Notes under the pieces: model-generated
What the model saw: only the letters and a program-made list of their open reading frames with translations
Databases searched by the model: none
Told to the model about the DNA's origin: nothing
Translations under genes and position numbers: made by a program
Shown here: positions 21,328 through 39,441 of the stretch, in pieces
Numbering within the stretch: position 1 is the first letter of the stretch
How the letters are laid out: each line of letters opens with the position of its first letter
Assembly (NCBI RefSeq): GCF_009811795.1
Contig: NZ_BLJE01000002.1
Span: 310,001-374,000, forward strand
DNA from: Litoreibacter roseus
Lineage (GTDB): Bacteria; Pseudomonadota; Alphaproteobacteria; Rhodobacterales; Rhodobacteraceae
DNA: 64,000 nt
Direction of reading: 5' to 3'

Positions 21328-22749
21328 ATGGAGCAAAAACGTGATACCCTGATTTTGTGCGGTCTGGCGCTTGCGTCGGTTATCTTGGCCATCGAGCCCC
21401 TGAGCTGGCTGATGACAAGCTGGCGTGATCCGTCCTACCAGTCCTACGGCGGCGTATATTGTGCCGTTCTTCTGGGTTTGGTTTGCCTGTCCCTGAAAAG
21501 CACCCCGCTTGGCAAACCAACCTCAGCAGGGCGCGTTTTTGCTCTATTTCTCATTGCGGCCGGTATCCGGCTGGCCGGGCAAGTTCTGGCCATCAATATT
21601 CTCAGTGCCCTTGCGCTGGCGCTGGATGTCTTTGCACTGGCAACGCTCTTGCGCCTCGATCAGCGCAAGTTCGCAGTGTCACCGACTTGGGTGGCCGTGT
21701 TTTTTCTGTTTGCCTTGCCGTTGGGGCCGATCCTTCAGCGCGTCGCTGGGTTTCCTCTTCAGATGATTTCCGCCGATCTTGCGTGCCACATGCTGTCGCC
21801 GTTCTTTGCGGATTTGCTGTGCGAGGGTGTGCGGCTGCGCGTGAACGGCGTTGACGTTCTGGTTGATCTGCCCTGTTCCGGTGCCTCGGGCCTTTTGCTC
21901 ATGGTAAGCCTGTGGGCGTTCCTGAATGTTATCTACAGACCCCGTCTGCTGCCCGCCTTGGCTGGCGGTGCGTTCGTTGTTCTCGTCAGTATCGTTGGAA
22001 ACGGGGTTCGGATAAGCCTGCTGGCGTCTGGTTTGGCCTTGGGCATCGACACAATGGCGCCCTTGCTGCACGCAGCCATTGGCATTGTCGCCCTTATGGT
22101 CGCTGCCTTGCCTGTCGTCTTGCTCTACAAGCCATCTGCCGCTGTGCCGAAATGCAGATCCTTTCCTTTTCCGAAATTGCCCAGGACCTTGCGGGTCCCT
22201 GCCGTCGTCGCGGCCATCATTGCGGCGGTCGCGATTGTAAATATTCCGAAGACACCCATTGATCGCTCGCCGCCAGTTGTGCAAGCGGAACTGCCGCGGC
22301 AGCTTCTGGGCGAGGTCGTGCAGCCCGTGGTGCTCAGCCAGACCGAGCAAAACTATTTCACGACCTATGGCGGTACGGCGCAGAAAGTTCAGTACGGACC
22401 GTTGGGCGTGAATATCGTGCGAACCTCATCGCCGCTGCGGCATCTGCATTCGCCCGCGACCTGCCTGCTGGGTATGGGGTATTCGGTCCGGTTTCTGGGC
22501 ACGCGCTTCGATCCCTTGCCGACGTCGGTCTATGAGGCGACGGGCCCCGACGGTCGTGTCTGGACCGTCGCGGTCAGCTTTGTCTCGGACGATGGCTATC
22601 AAACGGCAAGCGTGGGTGAGGCGGTTTGGAGTTGGCTCAACGGATCGTCCCAGACGTGGCAGTCCGTTCAACGGATCACCCCACATTCCCTGCCGGATCA
22701 AGACCGTATCGCGTTTGAGCAGGCAGCCCTCTCGGCCCTCGACCTTTGA
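21328..22749 (+). CDS. Exosortase with C-terminal EpsI-like domain
   Basis: The 473-residue inner-membrane protein has about eight hydrophobic segments in residues 5-275 and the exosortase catalytic triad: Cys183 in VDLPCSGASGLLLM, Arg228 in GNGVRISLL and His248 in LLHAAIGI. A further hydrophobic segment near residue 290 is followed by an extracytoplasmic EpsI-like (DUF3485-type) region (HLHSPATCLLGMGYSVRF). Exosortases are transpeptidase-like enzymes that cut PEP-CTERM tails and deliver proteins to the envelope. The gene lies 17 bases upstream of a VIT/VWA protein ending in such a tail, a one-enzyme, one-substrate arrangement. It recalls the exosortase T group, an assignment I could not verify. 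It starts 84 bases from the divergent oxidoreductase gene. Confidence 0.88.
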   Translation: MEQKRDTLILCGLALASVILAIEPLSWLMTSWRDPSYQSYGGVYCAVLLGLVCLSLKSTPLGKPTSAGRVFALFLIAAGIRLAGQVLAINILSALALALDVFALATLLRLDQRKFAVSPTWVAVFFLFALPLGPILQRVAGFPLQMISADLACHMLSPFFADLLCEGVRLRVNGVDVLVDLPCSGASGLLLMVSLWAFLNVIYRPRLLPALAGGAFVVLVSIVGNGVRISLLASGLALGIDTMAPLLHAAIGIVALMVAALPVVLLYKPSAAVPKCRSFPFPKLPRTLRVPAVVAAIIAAVAIVNIPKTPIDRSPPVVQAELPRQLLGEVVQPVVLSQTEQNYFTTYGGTAQKVQYGPLGVNIVRTSSPLRHLHSPATCLLGMGYSVRFLGTRFDPLPTSVYEATGPDGRVWTVAVSFVSDDGYQTASVGEAVWSWLNGSSQTWQSVQRITPHSLPDQDRIAFEQAALSALDL

Positions 22750-22766
22750 CATGTGAAAGGATCACC

Positions 22767-24782
22767 ATGCGACTATTTTTTCTTACTCTTTACGCGTTTG
22801 GCTTTGCCACGGTCTCCATGGCTATAGGCGCGGAGCGTGACGATATCGCGGGCCGTGTGATTGCGCATGTCGACGGAAAAACCGTTGATCTTCCGCTTCT
22901 GGACAGTGGCGTGGCGGTCAATATCGAAGGCGATATGGCGACGGTCGAAATCACGCAAACCTTCTCAAACCCGTCACGTGTCCCGCTAGAGGCGCGGTAT
23001 CTTTTCCCGCTTAACCAACACGCAGCGGTGTACGGAATGCAGATGGAGGTTGGCGATGAGATCGTACAGGCCAAGATCAGGAAGAAGGCAGTTGCGGAAG
23101 CCGAATTCGTACAGGCGTCCCAACAGGGCAAAGCTGCGGCTCTTCTGACCCAACATCGCCCCAACATGTTCACGCAGCGCATTGCCAATCTCATGCCCGG
23201 TCTGCCGGTCAAAGTCGTGCTGCGATACGTACAGATGGTTCCAAAGATCGACGGACGGCATGAATTGGTCATACCATTGATCGTTGGGCCCCGCTACGAG
23301 AGCCCGGACGTCCAGATCGCGGAGGATCCGTCTCCACAACAGGACAATATGTGGACGGTCAGCAAGGTCCCCGTCTATCCTCATGTGGCGGGCTTGGATG
23401 TGCCGGAAACCTACACATCTGAACGGGTTTCGCTTGCTCTGCAGCTTATCAGTGGGGTGTCGGTATCGGAATTCGGCAGCGCGACGCATGATCTTCTTGT
23501 AGATAGCAGCGATGGCTCAATCAGCGCCACATTCGTAGACGGCAAAGTGATGGATAACCGCGACTTGGTCATCCACTATACGATGGGCGGGACAGACCTT
23601 CAGGCGGCCAGCCTGTCACACACGGATGATCGCGGTGGTTTTCTTTCGGTAATGGTCGAGCCACCTTCGATGCCAGACGATGCTGTCGCGATACCGCGCG
23701 AACTGGTGTTTGTGTTGGACACGTCCGGATCCATGGGTGGCGCACCGCTTGAGGCGAGTAAGCGATTTATGGATGCCGCGCTCGAAGGCCTGCGTCCGGG
23801 GGATTACTTCAGGGTTATCCCGTTCTCGAATTCGACTCAACGGTTCGCGAATGGCTCTACGCCTGCAACCGCGTCTAATATCCGAAAAGGCAGACGTTAT
23901 GTAAACGGATTGAAGGCAGGCGGCGGAACTGAGATCGACAATGCGATCCAGACCGCGTTTGCGACCCGTCAACCCTCCGACACGATGCGGATCGTTGTGT
24001 TTCTGAGTGATGGATATATCGGTGATGAAGCGCGTGTTCTGAGGACCATTCGAAATCAGATCGGTCAGGCTCGGATCTACGCATTTGGCGTGGGCAACTC
24101 GGTCAACCGCTATCTGCTTGATGCGATGGCTGATGAGGGGCGTGGATATGCCCGTTACGTTGGCGTCGATGAAACTGCTGGTGAGGTCGCGGATATGCTG
24201 GCGGCTGACTTGAAAACGCCGCTTTTGACCGATCTGTCCATCGATTGGGGTGGTCTGGAGGTGACCGACGTCACCCCGACACGCCTGCCGGATCTTTTTG
24301 CCGGGGGTAGTCTGCGGATCTATGCGCGTCATTCCGGCAATGTCCCGCACGCTCAGACAACACTTAAGGGTCTTGTCCAAGGCCATCAAGCCGAGATGCC
24401 GATTCCGGTCACGTTAACCACCGCCGAGACCGATGCCGCTTTGCCTTTGATCTGGGCGCGCAACAGGATTTCGGATCTCACTCGTCAGATTGCAGTTGGC
24501 AGTGATGCGGTTAACGCCGAAGCGGAAATCACCGAGCTTGGCTTGGCGTTCTCGCTGCAGACCCGATATACGTCCTTCGTCGCGGTTTCCGAAAAGCAGG
24601 TGAATGCCAGTGGCCAACCTTCCACGCCCGCCGATGTCCCGCTTCCCATGGTGTCTGGCGTGTCCGCCGGGGCTTACCCGCAGGCCTTTGCAGGCTCATC
24701 ATCTCCGGAACCCGCAGCGATCATAGGCTTCATCGCGCTGGCGCTTACAACGATCTTCGGACTGCGTCGGCGAATTTTCTGA
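22767..24782 (+). CDS. VIT/VWA-domain protein with PEP-CTERM-type sorting tail
   Basis: The 671-residue protein has a signal peptide (cleavage near SMA-IGAERD) and an N-terminal VIT domain (VEITQTFSNPSRVPLEARYL, VVLRYVQMVPKIDG). A VWA domain follows with the MIDAS motif VLDTSGSMGG (Asp318), SDGYIGDEARVL and a terminal part related to inter-alpha-trypsin inhibitor heavy chains. The last 27 residues are an exosortase-type tail: SSPEP, a hydrophobic span (AAIIGFIALALTTIFGL) and basic RRRIF. It should be exported, processed by the adjacent exosortase and placed on the outer surface. The start at 22767 follows GAAAGGA. A second VIT/VWA protein with a different tail lies 6 kb downstream. Confidence 0.9.
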   Translation: MRLFFLTLYAFGFATVSMAIGAERDDIAGRVIAHVDGKTVDLPLLDSGVAVNIEGDMATVEITQTFSNPSRVPLEARYLFPLNQHAAVYGMQMEVGDEIVQAKIRKKAVAEAEFVQASQQGKAAALLTQHRPNMFTQRIANLMPGLPVKVVLRYVQMVPKIDGRHELVIPLIVGPRYESPDVQIAEDPSPQQDNMWTVSKVPVYPHVAGLDVPETYTSERVSLALQLISGVSVSEFGSATHDLLVDSSDGSISATFVDGKVMDNRDLVIHYTMGGTDLQAASLSHTDDRGGFLSVMVEPPSMPDDAVAIPRELVFVLDTSGSMGGAPLEASKRFMDAALEGLRPGDYFRVIPFSNSTQRFANGSTPATASNIRKGRRYVNGLKAGGGTEIDNAIQTAFATRQPSDTMRIVVFLSDGYIGDEARVLRTIRNQIGQARIYAFGVGNSVNRYLLDAMADEGRGYARYVGVDETAGEVADMLAADLKTPLLTDLSIDWGGLEVTDVTPTRLPDLFAGGSLRIYARHSGNVPHAQTTLKGLVQGHQAEMPIPVTLTTAETDAALPLIWARNRISDLTRQIAVGSDAVNAEAEITELGLAFSLQTRYTSFVAVSEKQVNASGQPSTPADVPLPMVSGVSAGAYPQAFAGSSSPEPAAIIGFIALALTTIFGLRRRIF

Positions 24783-24830
24783 ATGCAGGCCGTGCTGGAC
24801 AAAATTCAACCGAGTTGCAAAAGAAACAGC

Positions 24831-25511
24831 ATGAGCGCCCGTATTCTCATCACTGACGATGATCCGCACATCCGCGATGTCATTCGTATCGCGACCGAGG
24901 CCGCCGGGATGCAGACGATTGAGGCCGCAAATGGTGAACTCGCCTTATCCCATATCGGTCGTGAAGCTGTCGATCTGGTCGTCCTCGATGTCGGGATGCC
25001 CCAGATGGATGGGTTTGACTGCTGCAAGGCCATTCGCGCGAAGTCCAACGTTCCGATCCTTTTTCTGACGGCCCAGGATGATGAAGTTGACCGCGTTTTG
25101 GGGTTTCAGCTGGGCGGCGACGACTACGTGTCAAAACCGTTCAGCCCCCGTGAACTGGTGCTTCGCATCAAGGCTATTCTGGCGCGTGGCAGACCCGCGA
25201 CCGAGGCCGTTCGGACACATGGGGCGCTGGAGTTAGACGCGCCCGGCCATAGCTGCCGGATCGGCGGGCTGGAGATGGCGCTGACGGCGACCGAATTTGC
25301 CCTTCTTGAACGACTTCTCCAGCATCCAGATCAGGTACTGGATCGAAACCAGTTGATCGACGGCATATACGGGCACAACACGACATTGTCCGGTCGCACT
25401 GTTGATAGCCATATCCGAAATATCCGGGCGAAGGCAGCGGCGCTGAATTGTCACAACATCATCGTCACAGTTCATGGCGTGGGTGTGAAGCTTGGTCCGT
25501 GCGGCGGTTGA
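24831..25511 (+). CDS. OmpR/PhoB-family response regulator
   Basis: The 226-residue regulator has a receiver domain with acidic pocket ITDDDPHIRD, phospho-acceptor Asp53 in VLDVGMPQMDG, the Thr in LFLTAQDD and the Lys in DDYVSKPFSPRELVLR. A C-terminal winged helix follows (LTATEFALLERLLQHPDQVL, TVDSHIRNIRAKA). The start at 24831 gives the standard receiver N-terminus; the longer frame from 24783 adds 16 residues without family support. It follows the VIT/VWA gene by 48 bases and overlaps the histidine kinase gene, so the two-component pair may be cotranscribed with the exosortase module and could control it or the TAXI-TRAP genes downstream. Confidence 0.93.
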   Translation: MSARILITDDDPHIRDVIRIATEAAGMQTIEAANGELALSHIGREAVDLVVLDVGMPQMDGFDCCKAIRAKSNVPILFLTAQDDEVDRVLGFQLGGDDYVSKPFSPRELVLRIKAILARGRPATEAVRTHGALELDAPGHSCRIGGLEMALTATEFALLERLLQHPDQVLDRNQLIDGIYGHNTTLSGRTVDSHIRNIRAKAAALNCHNIIVTVHGVGVKLGPCGG

Positions 25512-27040
25512 GTGGCGTTCGGCGCAAATGGCGGCCGTCCATGGTCATGGTCGTCGCGCTTGTTTGCGGCGCGCTGATCTCGGTTCCGCTTCTGGCGCTT
25601 TTGGGGGCGCGGTTAACCTCCAACCAGTTTGTACGCGAAACTGAACAATCTCTGATCAATCAAGCCGCAATCTACGCAAAGCTCTTCGCGGCGTCTTTCG
25701 AAGAACTTGACGGGCCGCTGATCGGAACACCTTTGTCGGAAGAGCGCGCCGCGCATTGGAATGCGAACCTGCATCCCGCGCGGGCTCGGCTCAACGTGCG
25801 ATCGATAAGGGTGCTGCCGCCGCGGCCCGATGGGGCACCTGTGGATGAACCCGTGGAGCCGCGATATGCCAGTATCCGCCCGCAACTGATCCAAGTAGCT
25901 CGGGATGCGCGCAAGACCACGTTGGCGGGCGTGGTCTTCCTTGATGCCGATGGGCGAGACGCGAGTGGGGAAGGACCTGTTTCCTTCGCCAGCTTGCCCG
26001 AAGTGCAAGCCGCGCTGAATGGCGAAATTGGCGCCGTGCTGCGTGCGCGGGGGGATGACTATGATCCGCATCCTTTTTCTTCACTCAGTCGGGACACCGG
26101 ATACCGCATTTTTCTGACGTATCCCGTGATCTCTCAGGATCGGGTTGTTGGCGTTATCTATCTGTCGCGCACACCGCTCAATCTGGGTAAGTTTCTGTTT
26201 CAAGAAAGGTTCGCCCTCGTCACGATGCTGATTTCCACGCTGGTGGGCGCAGCACTTATCGGGTTTCTCCTTTTCCGGCTGATATCCCGCCCGATCTATG
26301 CGTTGCGGGACCATTCCCACGCGGTGGCGTTGGGGCAGGCGCCAAGTTCCATGTCGCAGGCGCATTATGGCATTCGGGAATTGGCAGAGTTGGGCGAGAG
26401 CGTTTCAACTATGGCAAATGCTCTGTCTCAGAGGTCCCGGGAAATCTCGACTTATACGGATCACGTCACCCATGAATTGAAATCCCCTGTGACGGCGATT
26501 ATCGGCGCGGCGGAGTTGCTGGAAGACGACGCCGTGGACCCGGTCAATCGGGACAAGCTGTTGAAAAATATCAACGCGGAAGCGCGGCGGATGAATCTTT
26601 TGCTGGGTCGCCTGCGTGAGATGACCCGCGTTCGATCCGCGCCACACGACGGGCCGGGCATGTTGACAAACATGTTGCCTGAGATTGAAGGCTTGGCGGT
26701 CCGCGTAACGAAAGGGTCGGACGAGACAGTGCCGCTGTCGGAACAGCACGGTCAGATGATCCTTGATCACATGGCACAGAATGCGCGCGGACATGGGGCG
26801 GACCAGATGCAGGTTTCCTTCGAAGGCGGTGTCTTGAAGGTTTTGGACAACGGGGACGGCATTCCCGAAGGTAATATCGAGCGGGTGTCTGAACCCTTCT
26901 TTACCACCCGAAGAGATGATGGTGGCACTGGCATGGGGCTCGCGATCGTTTCGGCTATTCTGGAAAGCTATGGCACCTCGCTTGTCTGTGTGCCGAATGA
27001 CGGCGGTGCTCTTTTCGAAATTCGCTTCGCACATCCCTAG
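25499..27040 (+). CDS. Membrane sensor histidine kinase
   Basis: The 513-residue kinase has a first membrane segment (MVMVVALVCGALISVPLLAL), a periplasmic sensor of about 190 residues and a second segment near residues 238-260. A HAMP linker, a HisKA domain with His325 in VTHELKSPVTAIIG, and a HATPase_c domain (DNGDGIPE, EPFFTTRRDDGGTGMGLAIV) follow. The N-box reads HMAQNARGHGA, a slightly unusual form. The start is taken as the GTG at 25499, overlapping the response-regulator stop by 13 bases; GTG, TTG or ATG codons slightly downstream are alternatives. The sensor domain is not recognised, so the signal is unknown. Confidence 0.9.
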   Translation: MRRLSGVRRKWRPSMVMVVALVCGALISVPLLALLGARLTSNQFVRETEQSLINQAAIYAKLFAASFEELDGPLIGTPLSEERAAHWNANLHPARARLNVRSIRVLPPRPDGAPVDEPVEPRYASIRPQLIQVARDARKTTLAGVVFLDADGRDASGEGPVSFASLPEVQAALNGEIGAVLRARGDDYDPHPFSSLSRDTGYRIFLTYPVISQDRVVGVIYLSRTPLNLGKFLFQERFALVTMLISTLVGAALIGFLLFRLISRPIYALRDHSHAVALGQAPSSMSQAHYGIRELAELGESVSTMANALSQRSREISTYTDHVTHELKSPVTAIIGAAELLEDDAVDPVNRDKLLKNINAEARRMNLLLGRLREMTRVRSAPHDGPGMLTNMLPEIEGLAVRVTKGSDETVPLSEQHGQMILDHMAQNARGHGADQMQVSFEGGVLKVLDNGDGIPEGNIERVSEPFFTTRRDDGGTGMGLAIVSAILESYGTSLVCVPNDGGALFEIRFAHP

Positions 27041-27119
27041 GGATATAGGCAGATCTTTTCAGTCGCTTGCCTTGCGGCGCTTGAGCCTCCAAAGTCATGA
27101 AAAGTCTGGGAGGATCAAC

Positions 27120-28076
27120 ATGTCATTCACAACACGTTTTGCTGTTCTTGCGTCACTCGCCGCGATCATTGTCGCACCCGCGTGGGCCGAAACCCGTGTC
27201 ACCTACAAATCTGCAAAGGTGGGATCGTCCTATTACCAGATGGCGGTCCAGATTTCCGAAGCGATGAAGGCTGGGACGGATAGCGAGGTGTCTGTCACGG
27301 TCGAGGAAAGCCAAGGTTCTGTCCAGAATGTGATGGAGGTTCGGGCACGGGGCGCTGACTACGTGTTTACCACACCGCCTGCGCTGGTCGGTTTGGCACA
27401 GGCCGGCAAGGCGATGTTCGAAGGCAAGGGTGATCCTGCCTTCGATGAGATCCGCGCCTTGTTCCCCATTCCGTCCTTGACCATGCATTTCGTCATGTCC
27501 GAGGCCAGTGGCGTGAAAAGCTTCTCAGAGATGGAAGGCAAGACAATCCTTCTGGGAAGCGGTTCTTTCGGGGCGCGTGAAGGGGCCAAATACCTCGAAC
27601 TTTTCGGGTTGCAGGACAAGGTGACCATCGCGGACTCTGAGCTTTCAAATGCCGTCAGTGCTTTGAAGAACGGCCAGATCGACGGGTTTGTTACGGCCGG
27701 ATCTTATCCCGCGCCGAACGTCATAGAAGCGGCCGCATCGACGGGTGTCACGGTTTTGTCCCTGAGCGAGGATCAGATTGCGAAATCCAAACGGACGCCA
27801 TTGACGATCCCTGCTGGCACATATGCTGGGCAGTCAGAAGCCATCACCACGACGTCTTTGCCTGTCGTGGCCTATACGACATCTAAGATGGATGACGAGA
27901 CAGCCTATCTTTTGACCAAAACGTACTGGGATATGAAAGCCGATATGGCAGGTGACGCCGCATGGTGGGACGGCGTGTCCACCGAGATGCTGAGCACGAT
28001 CACAACGACAATTCATCCAGGTGCGGTGCGCTACTACAAGGAGATCGGCGCTACTTTGAGCGATGCGCATATGTAG
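27120..28076 (+). CDS. TAXI-family TRAP transporter binding protein
   Basis: The 318-residue periplasmic protein has a signal peptide (MSFTTRFAVLASLAAIIVAP, cleavage near AWA-ETR). The TAXI pattern follows: YKSAKVGSSYYQMAVQISEA, VEESQGSVQNVMEVRARGAD, FVMSEASGVKSFSEMEGKTI, VLLGSGSFGAREGAKYL-like DNA-encoded loop and IPAGTYAGQSEAITTTSLPV. Members feed a fused 4TM-12TM permease, encoded next. The ATG at 27120 follows GGGAGGA; the upstream reading frame from 26916 runs inside the kinase gene and is not used. The ligand is unknown; some characterised family members bind glutamate or other dicarboxylic compounds. Confidence 0.92.
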   Translation: MSFTTRFAVLASLAAIIVAPAWAETRVTYKSAKVGSSYYQMAVQISEAMKAGTDSEVSVTVEESQGSVQNVMEVRARGADYVFTTPPALVGLAQAGKAMFEGKGDPAFDEIRALFPIPSLTMHFVMSEASGVKSFSEMEGKTILLGSGSFGAREGAKYLELFGLQDKVTIADSELSNAVSALKNGQIDGFVTAGSYPAPNVIEAAASTGVTVLSLSEDQIAKSKRTPLTIPAGTYAGQSEAITTTSLPVVAYTTSKMDDETAYLLTKTYWDMKADMAGDAAWWDGVSTEMLSTITTTIHPGAVRYYKEIGATLSDAHM

Positions 28077-28109
28077 TCTGGTTGCCGCGTTGTCTGAGCT
28101 ATTTGAGAC

Positions 28110-29897
28110 TTGATACCGGGATCTGCTGATCGCGCAGGTGGCGTCTGGGTCGCCTTGGGCGCGCTGACATGTGTGTTCCACATCGGTTTGATCTTTTCCG
28201 GGCTGGTTCCGAACCTTGTTGCACGCCCACTCCACATGGCGCTGATCCTGCCGTGGGTTTTTCTTATCGCACCCCTCAGCAAGGTCGGTGCCGTTCTCTG
28301 TGCAATTGGCGTTCTGGGTTGTGTCTGGATTGCGTGGAACCATGTGGACCTGCGCAATCAGTACGGCTTTCTTGAGGGCCAGTTTCAGATCGTCCTGGCA
28401 GTTGTGTTGCTTGTCATTGTGCTTGATGCGGCGCGCAGGATGATCGGTTGGCCGCTGCCTGTCGTGGCATTGTTCGCCCTGCTCTATGGCGTCTTGGGGC
28501 ACCATATTCCCGGAGAGTTTGGCCATGCGGGCACGCCCATACGCAGCTTTCTGGGGACGCTCGTTATCGCGGAAGGAGGCCTTTGGGGGAGCCTGACTGG
28601 TGTTTCAGTCGGGGTCGTGGCCATCTTTGTGATCTTTGGGGCGGTGTTGAACGCTGGTGAGGCCGGGCAGGGCTTTATGAATGTAGCTGCCGCCGCCGCA
28701 GGTCGGTTAAATGGCGGCGCGGCGAAGGTGGCGGTTCTATCATCGGCCTTGTTTGGATCGATATCTGGATCGGCGTCGGCCAATGTTGCATCAACCGGGG
28801 CGGTCACTTTGCCTGCGATGACCAAACTGGGCTATCCCAAGCGGCTGGCTGCGGCAGTCGAGGCTGTGGCATCTTCCGGTGGGCAAATCATGCCGCCGTT
28901 GATGGGGGCAGGCGCCTTTGTAATGGTTGAGCTCACCGGCGTGCCGTACGCACAAATTATCGTCGCTGCGCTTTTGCCCGCGATCCTCTACTTTCTTGCC
29001 GTCTGGATGGGCATAAACGCCTATGCGCAGCGCTACGACCTGAAGGGCGTGCCCGAGGACCAGCGACCGGATCGTCGCACCGTCCTAGTGACCTCCGTCT
29101 TCTTTCTGGTCCCTTTTTCGGTTCTGCTTTTCTCGATGTTTGTGCTGGGTTTCACGCCACAATACGCAGCGGCGCTTGCGATTTTTTCCGGGGTCGCCGC
29201 GCTCTTTTTTGACACCGCTTTCAAGGTGCAGATCGGCGGCGGGCTTCAACGACTTCGCCGCGCCATGGTTAATGCGGGTCAACAGGTTGCGATGATCGCG
29301 TCAATCATATTGTGCGCATCAATCATAATAGGCGTTCTGGGCATTACCGGGCTGGGTATCAAGATAACTTCGGGTATCCTCTCGGGTTCTGGTGGTGCAC
29401 TCTGGCCCGCTTTGTTGCTGACAGCGCTGGCTTGCCTGCTGCTGGGGATGGAGGTTCCGACGACCGCTGCCTATGTGATTTGCGTATCGGTCGCGGGACC
29501 CGCGCTGATTGAACTGGGGCTGGATCCCTTACAAGCGCATCTCTTTGTCTTTTGGTTCGCACTGCTTTCTACAATCACGCCACCGGTTTGTGGTGCTGTG
29601 TTTATCGCGGCCGGTATGATCGGGGAAAACTGGCTGAAGGTGGCGATAACTGCGATGGCGCTGGGCGTTGGTTTGTATCTGATACCTCTTGGAATGATCG
29701 CCAACGAAAACCTGATCCGCTTGCGAGAGCACCCGCTTGAAGCACTGATCGCATTTCTGCGTTTGGCGATCGGCCTCTCTTTGATTTCGTATGCATTGAT
29801 CGGCCGCTATCAAATCCTCTTGCGCGCACTCATGATTTTGTTGGGGCTCGGGCTCTTATTTTCAGGTGTAGTGCTGGTTTATCTGAGGCAACCATGA
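28110..29897 (+). CDS. TRAP transporter fused permease (4TM-12TM), TAXI type
   Basis: The 595-residue membrane protein combines the small (DctQ-like) and large (DctM-like) subunits in one chain, as in TAXI systems. N-terminal segments up to about residue 130 are followed by the DctM core: MNVAAAAAGRLNGGAAKVAV, LFGSISGSASANVASTGAVT, ASSGGQIMPPLMGAGAFVMV and MEVPTTAAYVICVSVAGPAL. STITPPVCGAVFIAAGMI closes the core. The start is TTG at 28110, 33 bases after the binding-protein stop; no ATG or GTG lies at a better position, so this start is moderately certain. The order binding protein then fused permease is standard. Confidence 0.9.
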   Translation: MIPGSADRAGGVWVALGALTCVFHIGLIFSGLVPNLVARPLHMALILPWVFLIAPLSKVGAVLCAIGVLGCVWIAWNHVDLRNQYGFLEGQFQIVLAVVLLVIVLDAARRMIGWPLPVVALFALLYGVLGHHIPGEFGHAGTPIRSFLGTLVIAEGGLWGSLTGVSVGVVAIFVIFGAVLNAGEAGQGFMNVAAAAAGRLNGGAAKVAVLSSALFGSISGSASANVASTGAVTLPAMTKLGYPKRLAAAVEAVASSGGQIMPPLMGAGAFVMVELTGVPYAQIIVAALLPAILYFLAVWMGINAYAQRYDLKGVPEDQRPDRRTVLVTSVFFLVPFSVLLFSMFVLGFTPQYAAALAIFSGVAALFFDTAFKVQIGGGLQRLRRAMVNAGQQVAMIASIILCASIIIGVLGITGLGIKITSGILSGSGGALWPALLLTALACLLLGMEVPTTAAYVICVSVAGPALIELGLDPLQAHLFVFWFALLSTITPPVCGAVFIAAGMIGENWLKVAITAMALGVGLYLIPLGMIANENLIRLREHPLEALIAFLRLAIGLSLISYALIGRYQILLRALMILLGLGLLFSGVVLVYLRQP

Positions 29898-29922
29898 TCT
29901 GCCGAACCTGAAAGCCGGCTCA

Positions 29923-30564
29923 TTATCCGGCCATCTGGCCGACGCGTTGTGTGATCATTTGGTAAGCCCGATGGCCGAACATGAAACCGGTGGCAAGTGC
30001 CAGTCCTACTGAATACCCCAACAGATGGCTGAGGACGTGCGGCGGCCAGTCGAGACCCCCAGAGATCAGCGGAGGATTTGTCAGCTCCCAGCCGATTTTG
30101 GCCAGACCCGCCGCTAGCAATGCAGCCCATAATTTTCGTGAGCCGTTTTGTACGCCGTAGATACACAGTGCTGCGAACAAAGTGTTAAGCACGCCGGACA
30201 AACCGCAATAGAGCGCGATTGAGGGGTCCAGAAGCACACCGAGCGAGATGACCATGCCGCCCGCGCAGACCAACCAGATCAGCTTGCGCGATCCGATCCA
30301 TCTTTCGAGCGGGATGCCGAGGGCAAACAGCCCAATCAGGTTTGGCATTAAATGCGCGGTGTCGAGATGGACAAGATGGGCAGTAACCAGACGCCAGACT
30401 TGCCCTTCCATGAGATCCCCGTCCGCATGGGCAAAGATTTCGAAACTGCCGGGCGCAAGCTGGGTCAAAGCGTGGACCACGAGGACAAGCGCGCCGAAGC
30501 CGAGCGTGGCGGGGGCCGCATATGCGGCCTCCGCGCTGCCCCGAAGAGAGGAGAGAACGTTCAC
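29923..30564 (-). CDS. Rhombosortase (rhomboid-family sorting protease)
   Basis: The 213-residue inner-membrane rhomboid protease has about six segments. It contains the conserved HLVHLDTAHLMPNLIGL (His71, Asn75), the catalytic Ser123 in YCGLSGVLNTLFAAL and the catalytic His180 in HVLSHLLGYSVGLAL. Short rhomboids with GLSGxL serine motifs lying beside a GlyGly-CTERM protein define rhombosortases, which cleave that tail during surface delivery. The upstream gene on the same strand encodes exactly such a substrate, and the GTG start here overlaps its stop (GTGA). This pairing makes rhombosortase more likely than a general rhomboid. Confidence 0.87.
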   Translation of the reverse strand: MNVLSSLRGSAEAAYAAPATLGFGALVLVVHALTQLAPGSFEIFAHADGDLMEGQVWRLVTAHLVHLDTAHLMPNLIGLFALGIPLERWIGSRKLIWLVCAGGMVISLGVLLDPSIALYCGLSGVLNTLFAALCIYGVQNGSRKLWAALLAAGLAKIGWELTNPPLISGGLDWPPHVLSHLLGYSVGLALATGFMFGHRAYQMITQRVGQMAG

Positions 30565-32801
30565 GAGCGGCCTCGCTTACCTTTGGTTCCGAACAAGCTC
30601 GCAAATCCTGCCAATGCGGCCAAGATCATGCCGAGGATACCCACATTGCCGGAGCCACCTCCACCGCCGCCACTGCGGGTCGGCGTATAGTTCGGCGCTG
30701 GCGACTGGAACATCGGCTGGGTCGTATCTGTCCGGTTCGATTGTACCGGCGCGCCAGCACGCTGTGCGGCTGCGTTGGTCTCTGTCTCTACGCGGTCGCG
30801 ATTGCGCCGCTCAATGCCCAATTCTTCGAAACGTTCCTGTCGCAAGGCAACCATGGCGGTGAGCGGTGTCAGAACGCCATGTTCAACAGACAGGTCGATC
30901 ACGTCGGTTTTCATGTCCGCGCTCTCACCCAAAAGCGCCATCTGCTCCATTCGGTTTTCGATCGCTTGAAATGCCCAAAGGCGCTCGATCTCAGGATTTC
31001 GTGTGGCGGTCTTGGGCAAGGACGCGACTGTCTCATACTGCACGCTCTCGCCCGCAATTTCGCCTGTCAGGGTCACACGCACATCGCCCTCGCCCCAATA
31101 ACGACCCAGAACGGACAACTGTTCACCCCGGTAGAGGGTTCGGATATCTTCGGCCTGGATGTCGGCGATGCGGACGTCGCCCTCCACGGCGTCGAGCTCG
31201 ATGTTGAGCCCGTTCAGCGCTTCATACCCGACCTTGTTTGCGGCTTCGACAAGCACACCCAATACATCGTCGGAGTTTGAGACAGAGACCGATGTCCCGC
31301 CGGACAAGCGGGTCATAGGCTCTAGCAACGGGCGATTTGCGCCAGTGCCCATAACGGCGGTGAACAGTCGGGTGTCCTGATTTTGAACGAGATCAAGGAA
31401 CCGCTTCGTTTCGGTCACGCCCACATTTGCCTCACCATCGGTGACCAGCACGATGGCACCTGTGCGATCAGCGTCGAGTGATCGTATAGCCAGGTCGAGC
31501 CCGGCATAGAGATTGGTGCTGCCCTCGGTCTGCAGAGCGCGGGCGCCCGCGGTCCATCGCGCCACGTTCTCAGGTGTCGCAGAGACCAGGCCGCCCGTCA
31601 GGTCGCGGGCGTTGTCACTGAAGGTGACGATTGAGAAGCGATCTTCGGGTGTCAGTTGAGCCAACGCGCGCGCGACGCCTTCCCCCAGAGTGGACAGCTT
31701 GGAGCCCATCGAACCCGACACATCGAGCACAAAGGCGAAGTCGCGCCCCCCGGTGATGGGTCCCAGATCCATGCCCGGTGTCAGGGTAAGCATGAACGTG
31801 CCTCGTCCTTCCGCGTCGGCCTTGTATGGTACAAGATCCACGCGGGCAGGCTGGTTCGCTACCTGACGCCAATACAGAACAATATCCGTATCAAGCCGCG
31901 TTGAATGCGCGTCCATCCGCCGTGCAGAAACCGGCATTTCGCCTTCAACGCCGGACTCGATGACCGCGCCGTCCAGTATGACTTCGCTGCCGCCAATTGC
32001 GTCCCATTCGCTTTCAGCGTCCGGATTATGCGCCGTTGGCGTCAGTACCGGTGCGGTGCCTGCGTCGTCTTGCGCGGGTAGGTCGATCACGTTGCGTCCG
32101 TCGCCCAGCGAGATGCGCCAGCCATCCGCCGTTCGTTCCGTGTGGGCGTTTGGATGCGCGGGCAGGCGCACCGCCTCTATCGGGTAGTCGGTGCGCAACT
32201 CCATGTCGAAGGCGAACCGGCCCGTTATGTCCTCGCTCATGTCCCAGAAAGCGATCCGGTCTTCGTTCGTGCTTTGGCGTTCCAGCGGATAAACGTAGCG
32301 TCCGATGCCACCTTCAAGGCGCGCGGGTTGCACATAGGTCAGCCGCACCATCACGTCGCCGCCTGCTGGAACAGGGGTCACCCGCATGTCGAACGCGTAA
32401 TGGTTGTCCTGTTCAGCAATAGCTGCCTCGCGGCCTGCTGCACGCTCATCCTCATAGATCTGACGGCCACGCTCGCGCTCAATAACCTCGCCAACGACCG
32501 GCTGGCCATCGATCCAATAGGTAAACTCTGTCACCGCAGCCTTTTCCGGCACTGGGAACGAATAGCGGGCCTCCGCTGCGGCTGCGCCGGGATTGGCGAA
32601 GCGCTGCTCAATCGTGGTGATCGCATAGCCATCTTCGAGGACCACCTGAACCTCGTGATCTGCAAGTTCGAGCGGTTGCTGCGTACCTGCGGGCGTTAAC
32701 AAACCCGCCGCTTCGGCAGCGGGCGAGATCACCAGAGGCGCCACGCCAAGCGACGCCGCCAAGGCGAGAGATGAGACAGTCGGGATGAAGGATCGGATCA
32801 T
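30561..32801 (-). CDS. VIT/VWA-domain protein with GlyGly-CTERM sorting tail
   Basis: The 746-residue protein has a signal peptide (cleavage near AEA-AGLL) and a VIT domain (TTIEQRFANPGAAAAEARYS, PVPAGGDVMVRLTYVQPARL). A VWA domain follows with MIDAS motif FVLDVSGSMGSK and VLVTDGEANVGVTET, then a C-terminal ITIH-like region. The end is a sorting tail: a run of six glycines with serine and asparagine, a hydrophobic span (VGILGMILAALAGFASLFG) and basic KGKRGRS. It is read by the overlapping rhombosortase gene. The start at 32801 has AGGAG eight bases upstream; the earlier in-frame ATG at 32825 lies inside an operator-like palindrome. It is a domain-level paralogue of the exosortase substrate at 22767. 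Confidence 0.9.
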   Translation of the reverse strand: MIRSFIPTVSSLALAASLGVAPLVISPAAEAAGLLTPAGTQQPLELADHEVQVVLEDGYAITTIEQRFANPGAAAAEARYSFPVPEKAAVTEFTYWIDGQPVVGEVIERERGRQIYEDERAAGREAAIAEQDNHYAFDMRVTPVPAGGDVMVRLTYVQPARLEGGIGRYVYPLERQSTNEDRIAFWDMSEDITGRFAFDMELRTDYPIEAVRLPAHPNAHTERTADGWRISLGDGRNVIDLPAQDDAGTAPVLTPTAHNPDAESEWDAIGGSEVILDGAVIESGVEGEMPVSARRMDAHSTRLDTDIVLYWRQVANQPARVDLVPYKADAEGRGTFMLTLTPGMDLGPITGGRDFAFVLDVSGSMGSKLSTLGEGVARALAQLTPEDRFSIVTFSDNARDLTGGLVSATPENVARWTAGARALQTEGSTNLYAGLDLAIRSLDADRTGAIVLVTDGEANVGVTETKRFLDLVQNQDTRLFTAVMGTGANRPLLEPMTRLSGGTSVSVSNSDDVLGVLVEAANKVGYEALNGLNIELDAVEGDVRIADIQAEDIRTLYRGEQLSVLGRYWGEGDVRVTLTGEIAGESVQYETVASLPKTATRNPEIERLWAFQAIENRMEQMALLGESADMKTDVIDLSVEHGVLTPLTAMVALRQERFEELGIERRNRDRVETETNAAAQRAGAPVQSNRTDTTQPMFQSPAPNYTPTRSGGGGGGSGNVGILGMILAALAGFASLFGTKGKRGRS

Positions 32802-32811
32802 TTTGCACTCC

Positions 32812-32861
32812 TGAACGTTGTTCATATTTTTCAGATAGCAGTAGCTTGAACGTTGTTCAAG
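32812..32861 (-). promoter_or_regulatory. Tandem operator-like palindromes upstream of the GlyGly-CTERM VIT/VWA gene
   Basis: Two copies of TGAACGTTGTTCA occur at 32812-32824 and 32847-32859. The second extends to the 17-base inverted repeat CTTGAAC-N3-GTTCAAG (32845-32861). Centres are 35 bases apart, and the first copy touches the ribosome-binding site of the gene starting at 32801. The form (TTGAAC-N3-GTTCAA) resembles TetR-family operators. No TetR gene is in the window. Confidence 0.65.
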
Positions 32862-34795: not shown

Positions 34796-35238
34796 TCTAT
34801 GTCCCCCTTGCCGTCGCCCCGGGTCCGTTGCTTGCCCAAGAACGCCATGGATCAACGCCGAAATCAACACCGCGACAGGGACAACAGCCTATGCCCGCGT
34901 ATACGTCTATGCCTGCTCAATCTTGTTGGTCATCTAAACCCCTTAAGATGCTTCTGGAGGCGTTCTGTGTCTTTCGCTGCGTGAACCAACGTCCCGGTTG
35001 GGCGTCTTTAAGCATTGAAACCGTAACCAAAAGGCTCGACGGGCTGTCTGGTCAGATTCAAAGCAGTTTACGGCTCAAACGGAACAGCGCGCCAATAAGA
35101 CCAGGTTGACGTGTGTGATAGCACGTCTTGTCACGGCAAGATAAACCGACTATTTCTATCAGGAAAGAGGTATCGTCCCAGCCAAGCCACAGTGCCAAGC
35201 CATCCAAGTTAAGTATAACAACCGGAGCTTGGCCTGCT
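34796..35238. other. Long intergenic region between the MFS gene and hmuS
   Basis: A 443-base divergent gap. Open frames here are shadows without family features. The inverted repeat GACGTG-N8-CACGTC at 35108-35127 lies about 110 bases before hmuS and could be a regulator site. No recognisable Irr (ICE) or Fur box was found by eye. Confidence 0.4.
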
Positions 35239-36279
35239 GTGTCCGCACCAACTTTAAATGCCGAAGACATTCGTGCGCATCGATCCGCGGCGCCTGATGC
35301 CCGTGATCGTGACTTTGCGGAGCGCCTTGGGATCAGTGAAGCCGCGCTTGTTGCAGCGTATTGTGGACACGGCGTGACACGGATCGACCCCAATCCCGAT
35401 GCGGTTATGAGCGCGGTCCAAGAGCTTGGCGAAGTTATGGCCCTGACCCGCAATGCCTCCTGCGTGCATGAAAAGATCGGTGTCTATGACAACTACCACC
35501 CAGGCCACCACGCCGCGATGATCCTGACCGAAGATATCGACCTTCGGATTTTCCCCCGTCATTGGCAGCATGCGTTTCTGGTCGAGCGGGAAAGCGATGG
35601 TGGCCTTCGCCGAAGCGTACAGGTCTTTGATGCCGCCGGTGACGCGGTGCACAAGACTATACTGCGTAACGGATCAAACCACGCGGCATTCACCGGACTT
35701 GTGTCGCGTCTGGCCTCGGAGAACCAATCGCAGGACTGCATCTTCAACACGCGTGCGCCTGACGAGCCTGCTAAAATTGCGACCGACAAGGTTGATATCT
35801 TGCGTAAAGAATGGCGACGCCTGACGGATACGCATCAGTTCTTGCGCCTGGTCTCTAGACTCAAGATGAACCGATTGGGTGCATATCACGTGGCCGGGCC
35901 AGCCTTTGCCCGGAAGCTGGCATCCAATGCGGTCAGTGCATTGCTGACCGACTTGCAACGTACCGAAACCGAGGTGATGCTGTTTGTCGGCAATCCCGGC
36001 TGTATTCAGATCCATACAGGTGCCTTGTGCTCTCTGAGGCCCATGGGCTCTTGGCTCAACGTGATGGATCCCCGCTTCAACTTACATTTGCGTAGCGAAG
36101 CGGTGTCGGAGGTTTGGGCGGTGCATAAACCCAGACAGCGCGGCACGGCCATATCGGTGGAAGCATTTGACGCGAAGGGTGCGCTGATCTTCCAAGTCTT
36201 CGGCGTTCCGAAAGAGGGACGCGACAGCCGCCCGGCGTTTCGTGCCATTGTCGAAGGATTGCAGGAGGTTGCAGCATGA
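35239..36279 (+). CDS. hmuS: Hemin-degrading factor / heme chaperone
   Basis: Cytoplasmic protein that binds or breaks down heme delivered by HmuUV. The 346 residues contain the two HemS/ChuS repeats: AYCGHGVTRIDPNPDAVMSA, VMALTRNASCVHEKIGVYDN and ILTEDIDLRIFPRHWQHAFL in repeat one, and VMLFVGNPGCIQIHTGALCS and DPRFNLHLRSEAVSEVWAVH in repeat two. The start is taken as the GTG at 35239, giving the family's usual length of about 345; the longer frame from 35128 adds a non-homologous leader. It is the first gene of hmuSTUV; hmuT overlaps its stop (ATGA). Iron-dependent control is expected from the family. Confidence 0.93.
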   Translation: MSAPTLNAEDIRAHRSAAPDARDRDFAERLGISEAALVAAYCGHGVTRIDPNPDAVMSAVQELGEVMALTRNASCVHEKIGVYDNYHPGHHAAMILTEDIDLRIFPRHWQHAFLVERESDGGLRRSVQVFDAAGDAVHKTILRNGSNHAAFTGLVSRLASENQSQDCIFNTRAPDEPAKIATDKVDILRKEWRRLTDTHQFLRLVSRLKMNRLGAYHVAGPAFARKLASNAVSALLTDLQRTETEVMLFVGNPGCIQIHTGALCSLRPMGSWLNVMDPRFNLHLRSEAVSEVWAVHKPRQRGTAISVEAFDAKGALIFQVFGVPKEGRDSRPAFRAIVEGLQEVAA

Positions 36280-37130
36280 TCGACCGACGCGGGTTTGTTG
36301 CTTTGACGTTCGCTTTCGGCGGCATGGGCACGCAGCTTCTGGCTTCACGCGACACCCGTGACGTCATTGCAATCGGAGGCGATGTGACCGAGATCATCTT
36401 CGCGTTGAACCAAGGGCACCGCCTTTTGGCGCGCGACACAACATCGACCTATCCCGCTGCCGCCCGCGACCTGCCCGACGTGGGCTACATGCGCCGTTTA
36501 TCAGCGGAAGGTGTCCTGTCCTTTGCGCCATCTCTTATTGTGTCAGCAGAAGGCGCAGGTCCGCCGGAGGTTATCGACATCCTTCGCGCCGCATCGGTTG
36601 AGTTTGCTGAAATACCGACGGGATACGATGCGGAAGCGATTGCGCAGAAAATCCATGCGGTCGGTGCGGCTCTGGCGGTGCCTGGCAAAGCTGCGAAATT
36701 GACCGCCGACACCCATGCGGCTTTGACTGCGGCCGTTGATCGTGCCGCGCGCACTGACGCGATGCCAAAGCGTGTATTGTTCGTCTTGTCGACTCAGGGT
36801 GGCCGTATCCTGGCCTCTGGCACGAACACGGGCGCCCACGGGATCATTCAGATGGCGGGCGGAACAAACGCAGTATCGGAATTCGAGGGGTACAAGCCTT
36901 TGTCGGATGAGGCCGTTAGTGCCGCGGCACCCGATGTTATTCTGATGATGGACCGCAGTGGTGATCATGCGGCGACGGATGAAGAGCTCTTCGCACTACC
37001 AGCCATATCCTCAACCCCGGCTGCGCAATCAGGCGATGTTGTGCGCATGAACGGGTTGTTGCTGTTAGGGTTTGGCCCGCGCACGGCGGACGCTGTCACA
37101 GCGCTGAACCGTGCGCTCTATCCGACCTAA
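36276..37130 (+). CDS. hmuT: Hemin ABC transporter periplasmic binding protein
   Basis: The 284-residue protein begins MIDRRGFVALTFAFGGMG, a short Tat-like signal. It shows the class III binding-protein (BtuF/HmuT) pattern: VIAIGGDVTEIIFALNQGHR, RDLPDVGYMRRLSAEGVLSF, APSLIVSAEGAGPPEVIDIL and the conserved GTNTGAHGIIQMAGGTNAV. The Tyr and Arg positions typical of heme binding (GYMRRLSAEG) are present. It delivers heme from the TonB-dependent receptor to HmuUV. It overlaps hmuS by four bases and is followed six bases later by hmuU. Confidence 0.93.
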   Translation: MIDRRGFVALTFAFGGMGTQLLASRDTRDVIAIGGDVTEIIFALNQGHRLLARDTTSTYPAAARDLPDVGYMRRLSAEGVLSFAPSLIVSAEGAGPPEVIDILRAASVEFAEIPTGYDAEAIAQKIHAVGAALAVPGKAAKLTADTHAALTAAVDRAARTDAMPKRVLFVLSTQGGRILASGTNTGAHGIIQMAGGTNAVSEFEGYKPLSDEAVSAAAPDVILMMDRSGDHAATDEELFALPAISSTPAAQSGDVVRMNGLLLLGFGPRTADAVTALNRALYPT

Positions 37131-37136
37131 GCCCCT

Positions 37137-38195
37137 TTGGCTTTGGCCGATCATCTGCCCGACAGCCGCGCCACCCGCGCCCGGCATATGCATCTGTGGT
37201 TATCGGTTGCGTTGATTGTCGTGGGAATTTTCAGCCTAACTGTTGGGGCCACGGAGGTATCGCTTGGTTCCGCACTGTGGAAAGTCGTCCAGGGCGAAGC
37301 GCTGACCCGGATGGAAGCTATCGTGCTTTGGGACATCCGTGCGCCCCGGCTCGCCCTTGGCCTTATGGTCGGCGCCGCATTGGCGATGAGCGGGGCGGTG
37401 ATGCAAGGCTTATTCCGTAATCCGTTGGCTGATCCCGGCCTTGTTGGCGTTAGCGCTGGCGCTGGTTTGGGTGCAATAACGGCCATCGTCTTGGCTGGGC
37501 TCGCACCGATGTGGCTGGCATTGGCTGTTGGCGATCAGTTGGTGCCCGTCGCGGCTTTTTTGGGGGGCTGGGCCAGCACGCTATTGCTTTATCGCGTCTC
37601 GACCCGGCGCGGCCGTACCTCTGTCGCGACGATGCTGCTTGCAGGGATTGCCCTTGGTGCTTTGGCTGGCGCGCTGTCGGGTGTCCTTGTTTATATCTCG
37701 GACGATCGCCAGTTGAGAGATCTCACCTTCTGGGGTTTGGGATCATTGGGCGGCGCCAACTGGACAAAGGTTCTGACCGCCGGGCCGATCATTATGGTTT
37801 CTGTTGTCGTGGCCGCATCACTTGGACGGGGTCTAAACGGTCTCGCGTTGGGAGAGGCGACAGCGGCGCATATCGGTTTGAACGTGCAATGGATCAAGAA
37901 TACGGCCATTCTGACGGTAGCAGCGGCCACAGGCGCCGCAGTGGCGGTGTCCGGCGGGATTGGTTTCATTGGCATCGTCGTGCCACATCTTTTGCGGCTA
38001 GGCACCGGTCCGGATCATCGACCTCTGCTGATCAACGCGTCTCTTCTGGGTGCGCTGCTTTTGGTGCTGGCCGATATGATCGCGCGGGTCATTATTGCTC
38101 CTGCTGAGTTGCCGATTGGTATCGTGACAGCAGTCCTTGGTGCGCCGGTGTTCCTGTGGATTTTGCTACGCCAGCACGCGATGGTGGATCTGTGA
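37137..38195 (+). CDS. hmuU: Hemin ABC transporter permease
   Basis: The 352-residue FecCD-type permease has about ten membrane segments. Family phrases are LWDIRAPRLALGLMVGAALA, SGAVMQGLFRNPLADPGLVG, VSAGAGLGAITAIVLAG, GLGSLGGANWTKVLTAGP and GFIGIVVPHLLRLGTGPDHR. It forms the inner-membrane heme channel with HmuV. The start is a TTG at 37137, six bases after hmuT; an ATG at 37188 is the alternative and would trim a basic leader of 17 residues. The leader resembles those of relatives, so TTG is preferred. Confidence 0.92.
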   Translation: MALADHLPDSRATRARHMHLWLSVALIVVGIFSLTVGATEVSLGSALWKVVQGEALTRMEAIVLWDIRAPRLALGLMVGAALAMSGAVMQGLFRNPLADPGLVGVSAGAGLGAITAIVLAGLAPMWLALAVGDQLVPVAAFLGGWASTLLLYRVSTRRGRTSVATMLLAGIALGALAGALSGVLVYISDDRQLRDLTFWGLGSLGGANWTKVLTAGPIIMVSVVVAASLGRGLNGLALGEATAAHIGLNVQWIKNTAILTVAAATGAAVAVSGGIGFIGIVVPHLLRLGTGPDHRPLLINASLLGALLLVLADMIARVIIAPAELPIGIVTAVLGAPVFLWILLRQHAMVDL

Positions 38196-38992
38196 CCTTG
38201 TCAGTGCACAATCTATCCGTGCGTTATGGGCGTAAGACTGTCATCGACGGACTGGAATTCGAAGCGCGACCTGGTGCGCTGCTTGCTATTGTTGGGCCAA
38301 ACGGGTCGGGGAAATCGACCCTGATCAAAGCGATCTGTGGTGATCTTCCGTATGAGGGGTCGATAGTTTTCAATGGCACCGAGGTAGCCGATGCCCGCCC
38401 TCGGGACTTGGCTGGCGTGCGGGGCGTGCTGCCGCAAGCCTCAACTCTCGCGTTTCCATTTCACGCGATTGAGGTGGTACGCATTGGACTAAGCTCTGGT
38501 GTGGGTGCGGATCACGCTGATCGTGCCCATGCGGCGATGGCGCGCGTAGGCCTTACGGGCTATGCGAACCGCTACTACCAAGAGCTTTCGGGCGGTGAAC
38601 AACAACGTGTGCAACTGGCCCGCGTACTGGCTCAGGTTTGGGAACCGGTCACGGCCGACGGCCCGCGCTGGCTCATGTTGGACGAGCCTGTCTCCAGCCT
38701 CGACATCGCGCACCAGTTGCAGATCATGACCATCGCGCGCGACTTTGCTCAAGCGGGCGGTGGCGTTGTCGCGGTAATGCATGACCTGAACCTGACCGGG
38801 CTCTTTGCGGATCATGTGCTCGTTATGGCGGAGGGTCAGGCATTGGCCACAGGTCGCCCGGTTGATGTGATGACCGACGTTACCTTGTCACGCGCGTATG
38901 GATGCGACCTTCAGGTCAACACTGTCCCACAAAGTGTAACCCCATTTGTTCTTCCGCATAATGCGCGAGCCGCTGCATCAAAGAGAGTTTAG
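38192..38992 (+). CDS. hmuV: Hemin ABC transporter ATP-binding protein
   Basis: The 266-residue ATPase has Walker A GPNGSGKSTLIKAI, Q-loop LPQASTLAFPFHAIEVV, signature LSGGEQQRVQLARVLAQVW, Walker B RWLMLDEPVSSLDIAHQ and the switch His in AVMHDLNLTGLFADHV. The insertion WEPVTADGPRWLML between signature and Walker B is typical of HmuV. The GTG at 38192 overlaps the hmuU stop as GTGA; the longer frame from 38156 lies inside hmuU. It powers heme import and closes the hmuSTUV operon. Confidence 0.94.
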   Translation: MTLSVHNLSVRYGRKTVIDGLEFEARPGALLAIVGPNGSGKSTLIKAICGDLPYEGSIVFNGTEVADARPRDLAGVRGVLPQASTLAFPFHAIEVVRIGLSSGVGADHADRAHAAMARVGLTGYANRYYQELSGGEQQRVQLARVLAQVWEPVTADGPRWLMLDEPVSSLDIAHQLQIMTIARDFAQAGGGVVAVMHDLNLTGLFADHVLVMAEGQALATGRPVDVMTDVTLSRAYGCDLQVNTVPQSVTPFVLPHNARAAASKRV

Positions 38993-39083
38993 CGTGCGTA
39001 AACGGCTCTAATAATATGCCCCAACACTTACGTATCGACCCACTTAAATCCCATCTAACCGCACAACTAAAAAAGGATTTTCA

Positions 39084-39404: not shown

Positions 39405-39441
39405 CCTCTGCAAAACACACCCGTCTGACGAGAACCCGGCA

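Follow-up and report, generated by a model that had tools for sequence, protein, structure and literature searches.

How do two surface proteins of the same general build, each encoded beside a sorting enzyme of a different kind, come to lie within 12 kb of one another in a bacterial genome? The question is raised by Litoreibacter roseus (Rhodobacteraceae), in a stretch of 64,000 nucleotides of contig NZ_BLJE01000002.1 (positions 310,001 to 374,000; assembly GCF_009811795.1), which is referred to here as the window and by whose numbering positions are given unless another place is named. One of the two VIT/VWA proteins adjoins an exosortase T (XrtT) and the other a rhombosortase, proteases that are unrelated to one another. 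This pairing, and the positions of the genes, had been proposed in a sequence-only reading of the stretch and were borne out by profile and Pfam scans. The explanation offered at that time was that one VIT/VWA scaffold had been duplicated and had then exchanged its tail and its enzyme. We find it considerably more probable, at roughly 0.8, that the locus consists of two independently derived single-target anchoring modules, separately controlled, that are neighbours by chance. The enzymes, their presumed targets and the domains of these are as follows.

21328..22749, + strand: exosortase T (XrtT), a membrane enzyme; 657.3 bits for NF033770, above the cut-off of 250, and Pfam Exosortase_EpsH
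22746..24782, + strand: VIT/VWA surface protein, presumed XrtT target; listed with a TTG start, the ATG at 22767 being likely
22911..23228, + strand: VIT domain of the XrtT target, 102.9 bits (genome place 332911-333228)
23700..24155, + strand: VWA domain of the XrtT target, with a DTSGS motif (Pfam, residues 319-470)
29923..30564, - strand: rhombosortase, a rhomboid-family intramembrane protease; 102.6 bits for TIGR03902, above the cut-off of 84, and Pfam Rhomboid
30561..32825, - strand: VIT/VWA surface protein, presumed rhombosortase target; start at 32801 likely
32334..32663, - strand: VIT domain of the rhombosortase target, 105.7 bits (genome place 342334-342663)
31275..31742, - strand: VWA domain of the rhombosortase target, with a DVSGS motif (Pfam, residues 362-517)

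Motif searches placed Cys183 of XrtT within a PCSG motif and Ser123 of the rhombosortase within a GLSG motif; we take the cysteine to be the catalytic residue, and the serine presumably has a catalytic-type role.

Descent of the two proteins and of their tails

Both proteins match PF08487 (VIT) and then a VWA family, each above the gathering cut-off, and both carry a motif of the metal ion-dependent adhesion site (MIDAS) type, DTSGS in the XrtT target and DVSGS in the rhombosortase target. The common domain order that had been claimed for them holds to this extent, and the "ITIH-like end" that was also claimed has no counterpart among Pfam domains at E <= 0.1. Their shared order of domains, together with an alignment of 629 positions at 24% identity (E 1e-25), is what might be expected if a VIT/VWA gene had been duplicated at the locus and one copy had later swapped its tail and enzyme. 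Each protein nevertheless has closer relatives elsewhere, the XrtT target being 66-70% identical to proteins of three genus mates and the rhombosortase target 76% identical to a protein of Jannaschia aquimarina (locus L065). The XrtT target scores 99 bits against its neighbour in the window, as compared to 213-355 bits against 26 sortase-type and other PEP-tailed proteins of the trees described next.

Quick maximum-likelihood trees, with the tails cut off, were built from 66 proteins and again from 65 after the longest outgroup (L020) was dropped; the rows were picked from the fetched loci and labelled by neighbouring enzyme, by homology and by the tail as judged by eye. The remaining distant outgroup (L172) is on a long branch, and L148, which was labelled as outgroup, fell inside the sortase-type rows. 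The XrtT target lies within a clade of 11 XrtT targets with a support of 100 in both trees (SH-aLRT, an approximate likelihood-ratio test), and the rhombosortase target lies within a clade of 26 with supports of 97 and 100, its nearest member being the protein of J. aquimarina. Constraining the two window proteins to be sisters costs 797 log-likelihood units and is rejected by the approximately unbiased (AU) test with p 3.6e-83. The two proteins fall into separate clades, and local duplication, which we now consider scarcely credible, is rejected under the model used as the origin of the pair.

The two proteins end in the unlike tails SSSPEPAAIIGFIALALTTIFGLRRRIF (XrtT target) and SGGGGGGSGNVGILGMILAALAGFASLFGTKGKRGRS (rhombosortase target), and, as had been noticed, each adjoins an enzyme of the type expected for its tail, exosortases being enzymes that act on PEP tails.

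24705..24773, + strand: PEP-CTERM-type sorting tail, residues 654-676 of the XrtT target
30564..30683, - strand: GlyGly-CTERM-type tail of the rhombosortase target (glycine-rich stretch, hydrophobic helix, basic end), judged from the sequence, the hydrophobic segment being residues 728-746

The PEP-CTERM model TIGR02595 (cut-off 16) gives 19.3 bits for the tail alone and 15.3 bits for the whole XrtT target. The tripartite layout of the second tail was recognised by eye and by hydropathy, and the tails of its relatives were likewise judged by eye; its sole listed match is to SVAGG, at 11.3 bits for a cut-off of 150. Over 63 labelled rows of the tree, three tail states require two changes, a count that is not unbiased, and a clustering by tail type that is partly there by construction, since the labels derive in part from homology. 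Such stability of tail type within clades argues against frequent exchange and against a tail swap following a duplication; repeated tail exchange, of the convergent kind for which this locus had been thought to be a case, is not seen. At two loci (L056 and L058) PEP-tailed VIT/VWA proteins adjoin an exosortase Q (XrtQ), with 397 and 370 bits for a cut-off of 270, which makes XrtQ a fourth enzyme class on the VIT/VWA scaffold.

The two modules in related genomes

Three further genes lie between the XrtT target and the rhombosortase.

24783..25511, + strand: CreB-like response regulator of the XrtT cassette; 207.6 bits for the CreB model, below the cut-off of 273
25448..27040, + strand: CreC-like sensor histidine kinase of the XrtT cassette (profile and Pfam matches)
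26916..29897, + strand: TAXI-type TRAP solute-binding protein with fused permease; 168.5 bits for TIGR02122 and 479.8 bits for TIGR02123

The listed TAXI open reading frame shares 125 bases with the kinase gene (window 25448-28076), and because of this overlap its real start probably lies downstream of the listed one. In a search for XrtT itself, independent of VIT genes, the enzyme is found above cut-off in 5 of 295 genomes of the family, the window's included, with a VIT gene adjoining it in all five; the model is matched only below cut-off in 75 further family genomes, and a VIT gene is present in 10 of the 295. Within the genus, VIT genes are confined to 4 of 21 genomes, namely that of the window, which has two, and three that have the XrtT cassette. 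Apart from the window, ten XrtT loci could be compared, all of them reached through their VIT genes, in fetched stretches of 9.7 to 19 kb. Homologues of the regulator and of the kinase are present in all ten, with one kinase cut by the end of a contig. Searches of the fetched stretches by blastp with the window proteins found neither a rhombosortase nor a TAXI gene, and the XrtT locus L052 holds one distant (27%) TRAP permease reading frame. At 80 loci with a relative of the rhombosortase target, no TAXI-TRAP appears among the matches listed, which were those of at least 35% identity. A part for the TAXI-TRAP in either system was rejected, there being no TAXI match, within the scope of these searches, in the relatives' loci of either module. 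The sequence-only reading was correct that a two-component system and a TAXI-TRAP stand between the modules; judged by gene content across these loci, the former is a part of the XrtT cassette and the latter is a bystander of both modules.

Relatives of the second module were gathered by scanning the species collection of GTDB with an alignment, which succeeded where a single-sequence scan of genome contigs had confirmed nothing; this gave 125 loci with a relative of the rhombosortase target, of which the best 80 were kept. A rhombosortase gene is adjacent in 31 of the 75 loci that have at least 700 bases downstream, and a rhombosortase above cut-off is found somewhere in 45 of 50 such genomes. 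Within the family it is found above cut-off in 2 of 295 genomes, that of the window and G188, which is without a VIT match; the model is matched only below cut-off in 264 further family genomes and in all 14 control genomes. Among plasmid records, 55 match the rhombosortase target, all under 60% identity, and XrtT has no match. At one locus (L051, 9178-11382) the relative of the rhombosortase target is shortened, and after it comes what we take to be a transposase-like gene.

It might be supposed that the modules belong together in function, as a unit in which two surface VIT/VWA proteins cooperate or substitute for one another by condition, one under the two-component system and the other under a TetR-family regulator (see below). 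The different control predicted for the two modules would suit such an arrangement, as would the frequency of second VIT proteins, which are encoded in 28 of the 50 genomes (out of the 80) that were examined for them. Of the 28 second loci, 27 were fetched (the one left out is a 219-residue frame in G752); 16 have proteins that end, by eye, in a sortase-like xPxTA motif, and two are XrtT cassettes. Both of the neighbouring sortases that were tested are class GN sortases above cut-off. From these counts, genomes that combine two VIT/VWA systems, each with its own type of anchor, are common in this sample. On the other side of the account, only one VIT protein is encoded in 22 of the 50 genomes, and of the other 20 genomes of the genus three have one VIT protein and 17 have none. 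Linkage of the two modules was seen at none of the 80 rhombosortase-target loci (XrtT in 0 of 80) and at none of the ten other XrtT loci, so that their side-by-side arrangement has been seen only in the window. An XrtT cassette and a rhombosortase target do occur together in 2 of the 50 genomes, Roseibium sp. MMSF_3412 and an Azospirillaceae metagenome-assembled genome, on separate contigs in each; as these cassettes came to light solely by way of second VIT genes, the count would not include an XrtT that has no VIT gene. That the two modules never co-occur elsewhere is therefore true of the locus and untrue of the genome. On this evidence a functional unit seems unlikely, and two modules that adjoin by chance remains the reading that we prefer.

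Arrival of both modules as one island finds no support in G+C content (0.566-0.609 for the modules, 0.555 and 0.584 for the flanks). At the loci of the three genus mates and of J. aquimarina, the window flanks are matched only at 29-32%, with no close match around the cassettes. Further along the window, reading frames at 35128-40374 include a haem-degrading protein, ABC transporter genes and a TonB-like protein, which we take to be a haem uptake locus.

A palindrome upstream of the rhombosortase target

The separate control of the second module is suggested by a palindrome that occurs in two copies upstream of its VIT/VWA gene, where 0.04 copies would be expected in the window.

32812..32824, unstranded: operator palindrome copy 1, TGAACGTTGTTCA, overlapping the upstream ATG by two bases
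32846..32860, unstranded: operator palindrome copy 2, TTGAACGTTGTTCAA, a match to TTGAAC-N3-GTTCA

The ATG further upstream, at 32825, shares bases with an operator palindrome, which makes 32801 the more likely start of the rhombosortase target. Among the 76 relative loci with at least 700 bases upstream, TGAAC-N3-GTTCA is present in all 23 that have a divergent TetR gene and in 5 of the 53 that do not (Fisher 5.8e-15, without correction for relatedness, a value that overstates the association since related genomes are not independent). In the 80 loci taken together (1.396 Mb), 48 of the 49 occurrences of the palindrome fall within segments of up to 560 bases upstream of VIT/VWA genes, and a swapped control pattern occurs three times in all. 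The three divergent regulators that were scanned all match TetR_C_33.

No TetR gene is found near the window palindromes, and a tblastn search for a decayed one beside the gene gave no convincing remnant (best E 0.27, not adjacent). The TetR protein of J. aquimarina has seven matches in the genome of the window, the best at C1:114450-114986 (E 5.5e-15, 29% identity). A genome-wide search for the longer form only, TTGAAC-N3-GTTCA, found three distinct places, which are window copy 2 and two sites that flank this best TetR homologue, an orphan (G000 C1:114312-115013, L180); window copy 1, with its shorter core, is outside that count, and a reversed control pattern gave no occurrence in the genome. 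It seems, from the distribution of these sites, that the rhombosortase module is repressed by a TetR protein encoded elsewhere in the genome. One of the TetR-flanking sites is upstream of an acyltransferase gene that is followed by a CTP-transferase-family gene; we take these to be PlsC-like and CdsA-like genes, probably of phospholipid synthesis. The sharing of a palindrome between probable phospholipid genes and a possibly phospholipid-anchored system is suggestive only.

In other genomes, 20 stretches with palindrome sites were fetched from those listed. Six genus mates (G001, G002, G005, G007, G013 and G014) account for seven of them, two being from G014. In four genus genomes (L181-L184) a TetR gene, a PspA/IM30-family gene and a PlsC/CdsA-like pair are found together, and in two other members of the family (L188 and L190) a TetR gene is found with a PspA-like gene, the lipid pair being absent from the stretch. 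The sites of G005 are upstream of a membrane-protein reading frame without a Pfam match, and the two stretches of G014 have no recognised partner gene. The palindrome could then be the site of another regulator, or a general site of a TetR subfamily, and exert no control over the gene at 32801, as the TetR genes that it flanks beside PspA/IM30-family rather than VIT/VWA genes in these relatives, and the 13 stretches of 20 without a TetR homologue, would allow. We give this only a small chance, given that the palindrome is so largely confined, in the 80 loci, to the upstream segments of VIT/VWA genes and that two copies stand in the window.

Known systems and the meaning of the locus

In the module that includes XrtT, the target would be exported by way of its signal peptide and retained by the helix of its PEP-type tail, after which XrtT would process it for attachment to the envelope, with expression controlled by the adjacent CreB/CreC-like pair. 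In the other, the rhombosortase would cut its target in the glycine-rich tail, and the new C-terminus would be joined to a phospholipid-type group by analogy with VesB of Vibrio cholerae, for which the published account describes cleavage by rhombosortase in the GlyGly motif and the gain, at the new end, of a glycerophosphoethanolamine-containing group (PMC6219818), the reported glycerophosphoethanolamine mass being 197 Da; a TetR-family repressor, here encoded elsewhere in the genome, would act at the palindromes. What the analysis shows directly is the identity of the genes, the conservation of each module, the rejection of local duplication and the tie between palindrome and TetR; these reactions, the anchoring, the repression and the fortuitous nature of the juxtaposition we infer.

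Several observations weigh against this account. The XrtT-target and rhombosortase-target clades, if joined as one clade at depth, are compatible with the 65-protein tree (AU p 0.348) and may thus be sisters. No GlyGly-CTERM domain match was obtained with the whole rhombosortase target (E <= 1) or with its tail (E <= 10), in a library whose inclusion of that model is unconfirmed; the missing match says little, because four relatives with plain glycine-rich tails (L065, L068, L086 and L129) are likewise unmatched. The divergent TetR gene is only weakly tied to an adjacent rhombosortase, which is present at 12 of 20 loci with TetR and at 19 of 52 without. The candidate for such action from elsewhere in the genome shares just 29% identity with its J. 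aquimarina counterpart, over residues 41-211 of the latter, and is one of seven matches. In other genomes a TetR homologue is present in 7 of the 20 stretches with sites, and the remaining 13 have no homologue of either TetR or the lipid genes, for which reason the palindrome pattern alone is not proof. The co-occurrence of the modules within 12 kb might, finally, still carry meaning.

Both modules resemble systems already known. The first has the features of the XrtT (NF033770) system, with the enzyme above cut-off, an adjacent VIT/VWA target and the regulator and kinase that recur in all ten other loci; the window differs by the addition of the TAXI-TRAP and the rhombosortase module, which the fetched stretches of the other loci lack. 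It also resembles, in its VIT/VWA target and two-component system, the proteobacterial dedicated sortase system (class GN sortase TIGR03784, target TIGR03788, regulator TIGR03787, kinase TIGR03785), from which it differs in that its enzyme is an exosortase and its regulator scores 117 bits for TIGR03787 (cut-off 335.7), as against 386 and 393 for two regulators encoded next to VIT genes of the sortase type. For TIGR03788 (cut-off 551.65) the XrtT target reaches 449.2 bits and the rhombosortase target 203.4 bits. The second module is like the GlyGly-CTERM/rhombosortase pair in having a rhombosortase above cut-off beside its presumed target, and VIT/VWA proteins are among the families described for that pair (Haft and colleagues 2011, PMC3237569); the window departs from it in a tail unmatched by a listed GlyGly model and in the TetR-linked palindrome upstream. 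With VesB it has in common a glycine-rich tail and a rhombosortase; VesB, unlike the window protein, is a protease, and it depends on type II secretion (PMC6219818).

It had been suggested that no such combined locus was on record. The joint XrtT and rhombosortase locus is indeed new in the material searched, and it is most simply a chance neighbourhood; its elements had a precedent, as the same 2011 paper reports GlyGly, LPXTG and PEP tails on homologues within one VIT/VWA family and single-target rhombosortase pairs (PMC3237569). The literature search met no paper on XrtT by title, and no described regulator of rhombosortase systems, nor this palindrome or a trans-acting TetR protein.

We put forward, as a tentative and somewhat doubtful extension, that the VIT/VWA system with rhombosortase works as a module for envelope stress, and that one TetR_C_33-type subfamily acting at TTGAAC-N3-GTTCAA operators may control, across different lineages, the VIT/VWA-rhombosortase pair, a PspA/IM30-family gene and a neighbouring PlsC/CdsA-like pair, doing so in trans in the genome of the window. 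If this is true, phospholipid-based surface anchoring would be coupled to the status of membrane lipid synthesis. More broadly, a single scaffold should be served by two anchoring chemistries within one cell of L. roseus, which makes the locus useful for asking if the tail alone decides the enzyme. The palindrome is the more useful result of the two, as a conserved repressor-type site that PspA-family genes and probable phospholipid genes also have gives a direct way to test what triggers the system.

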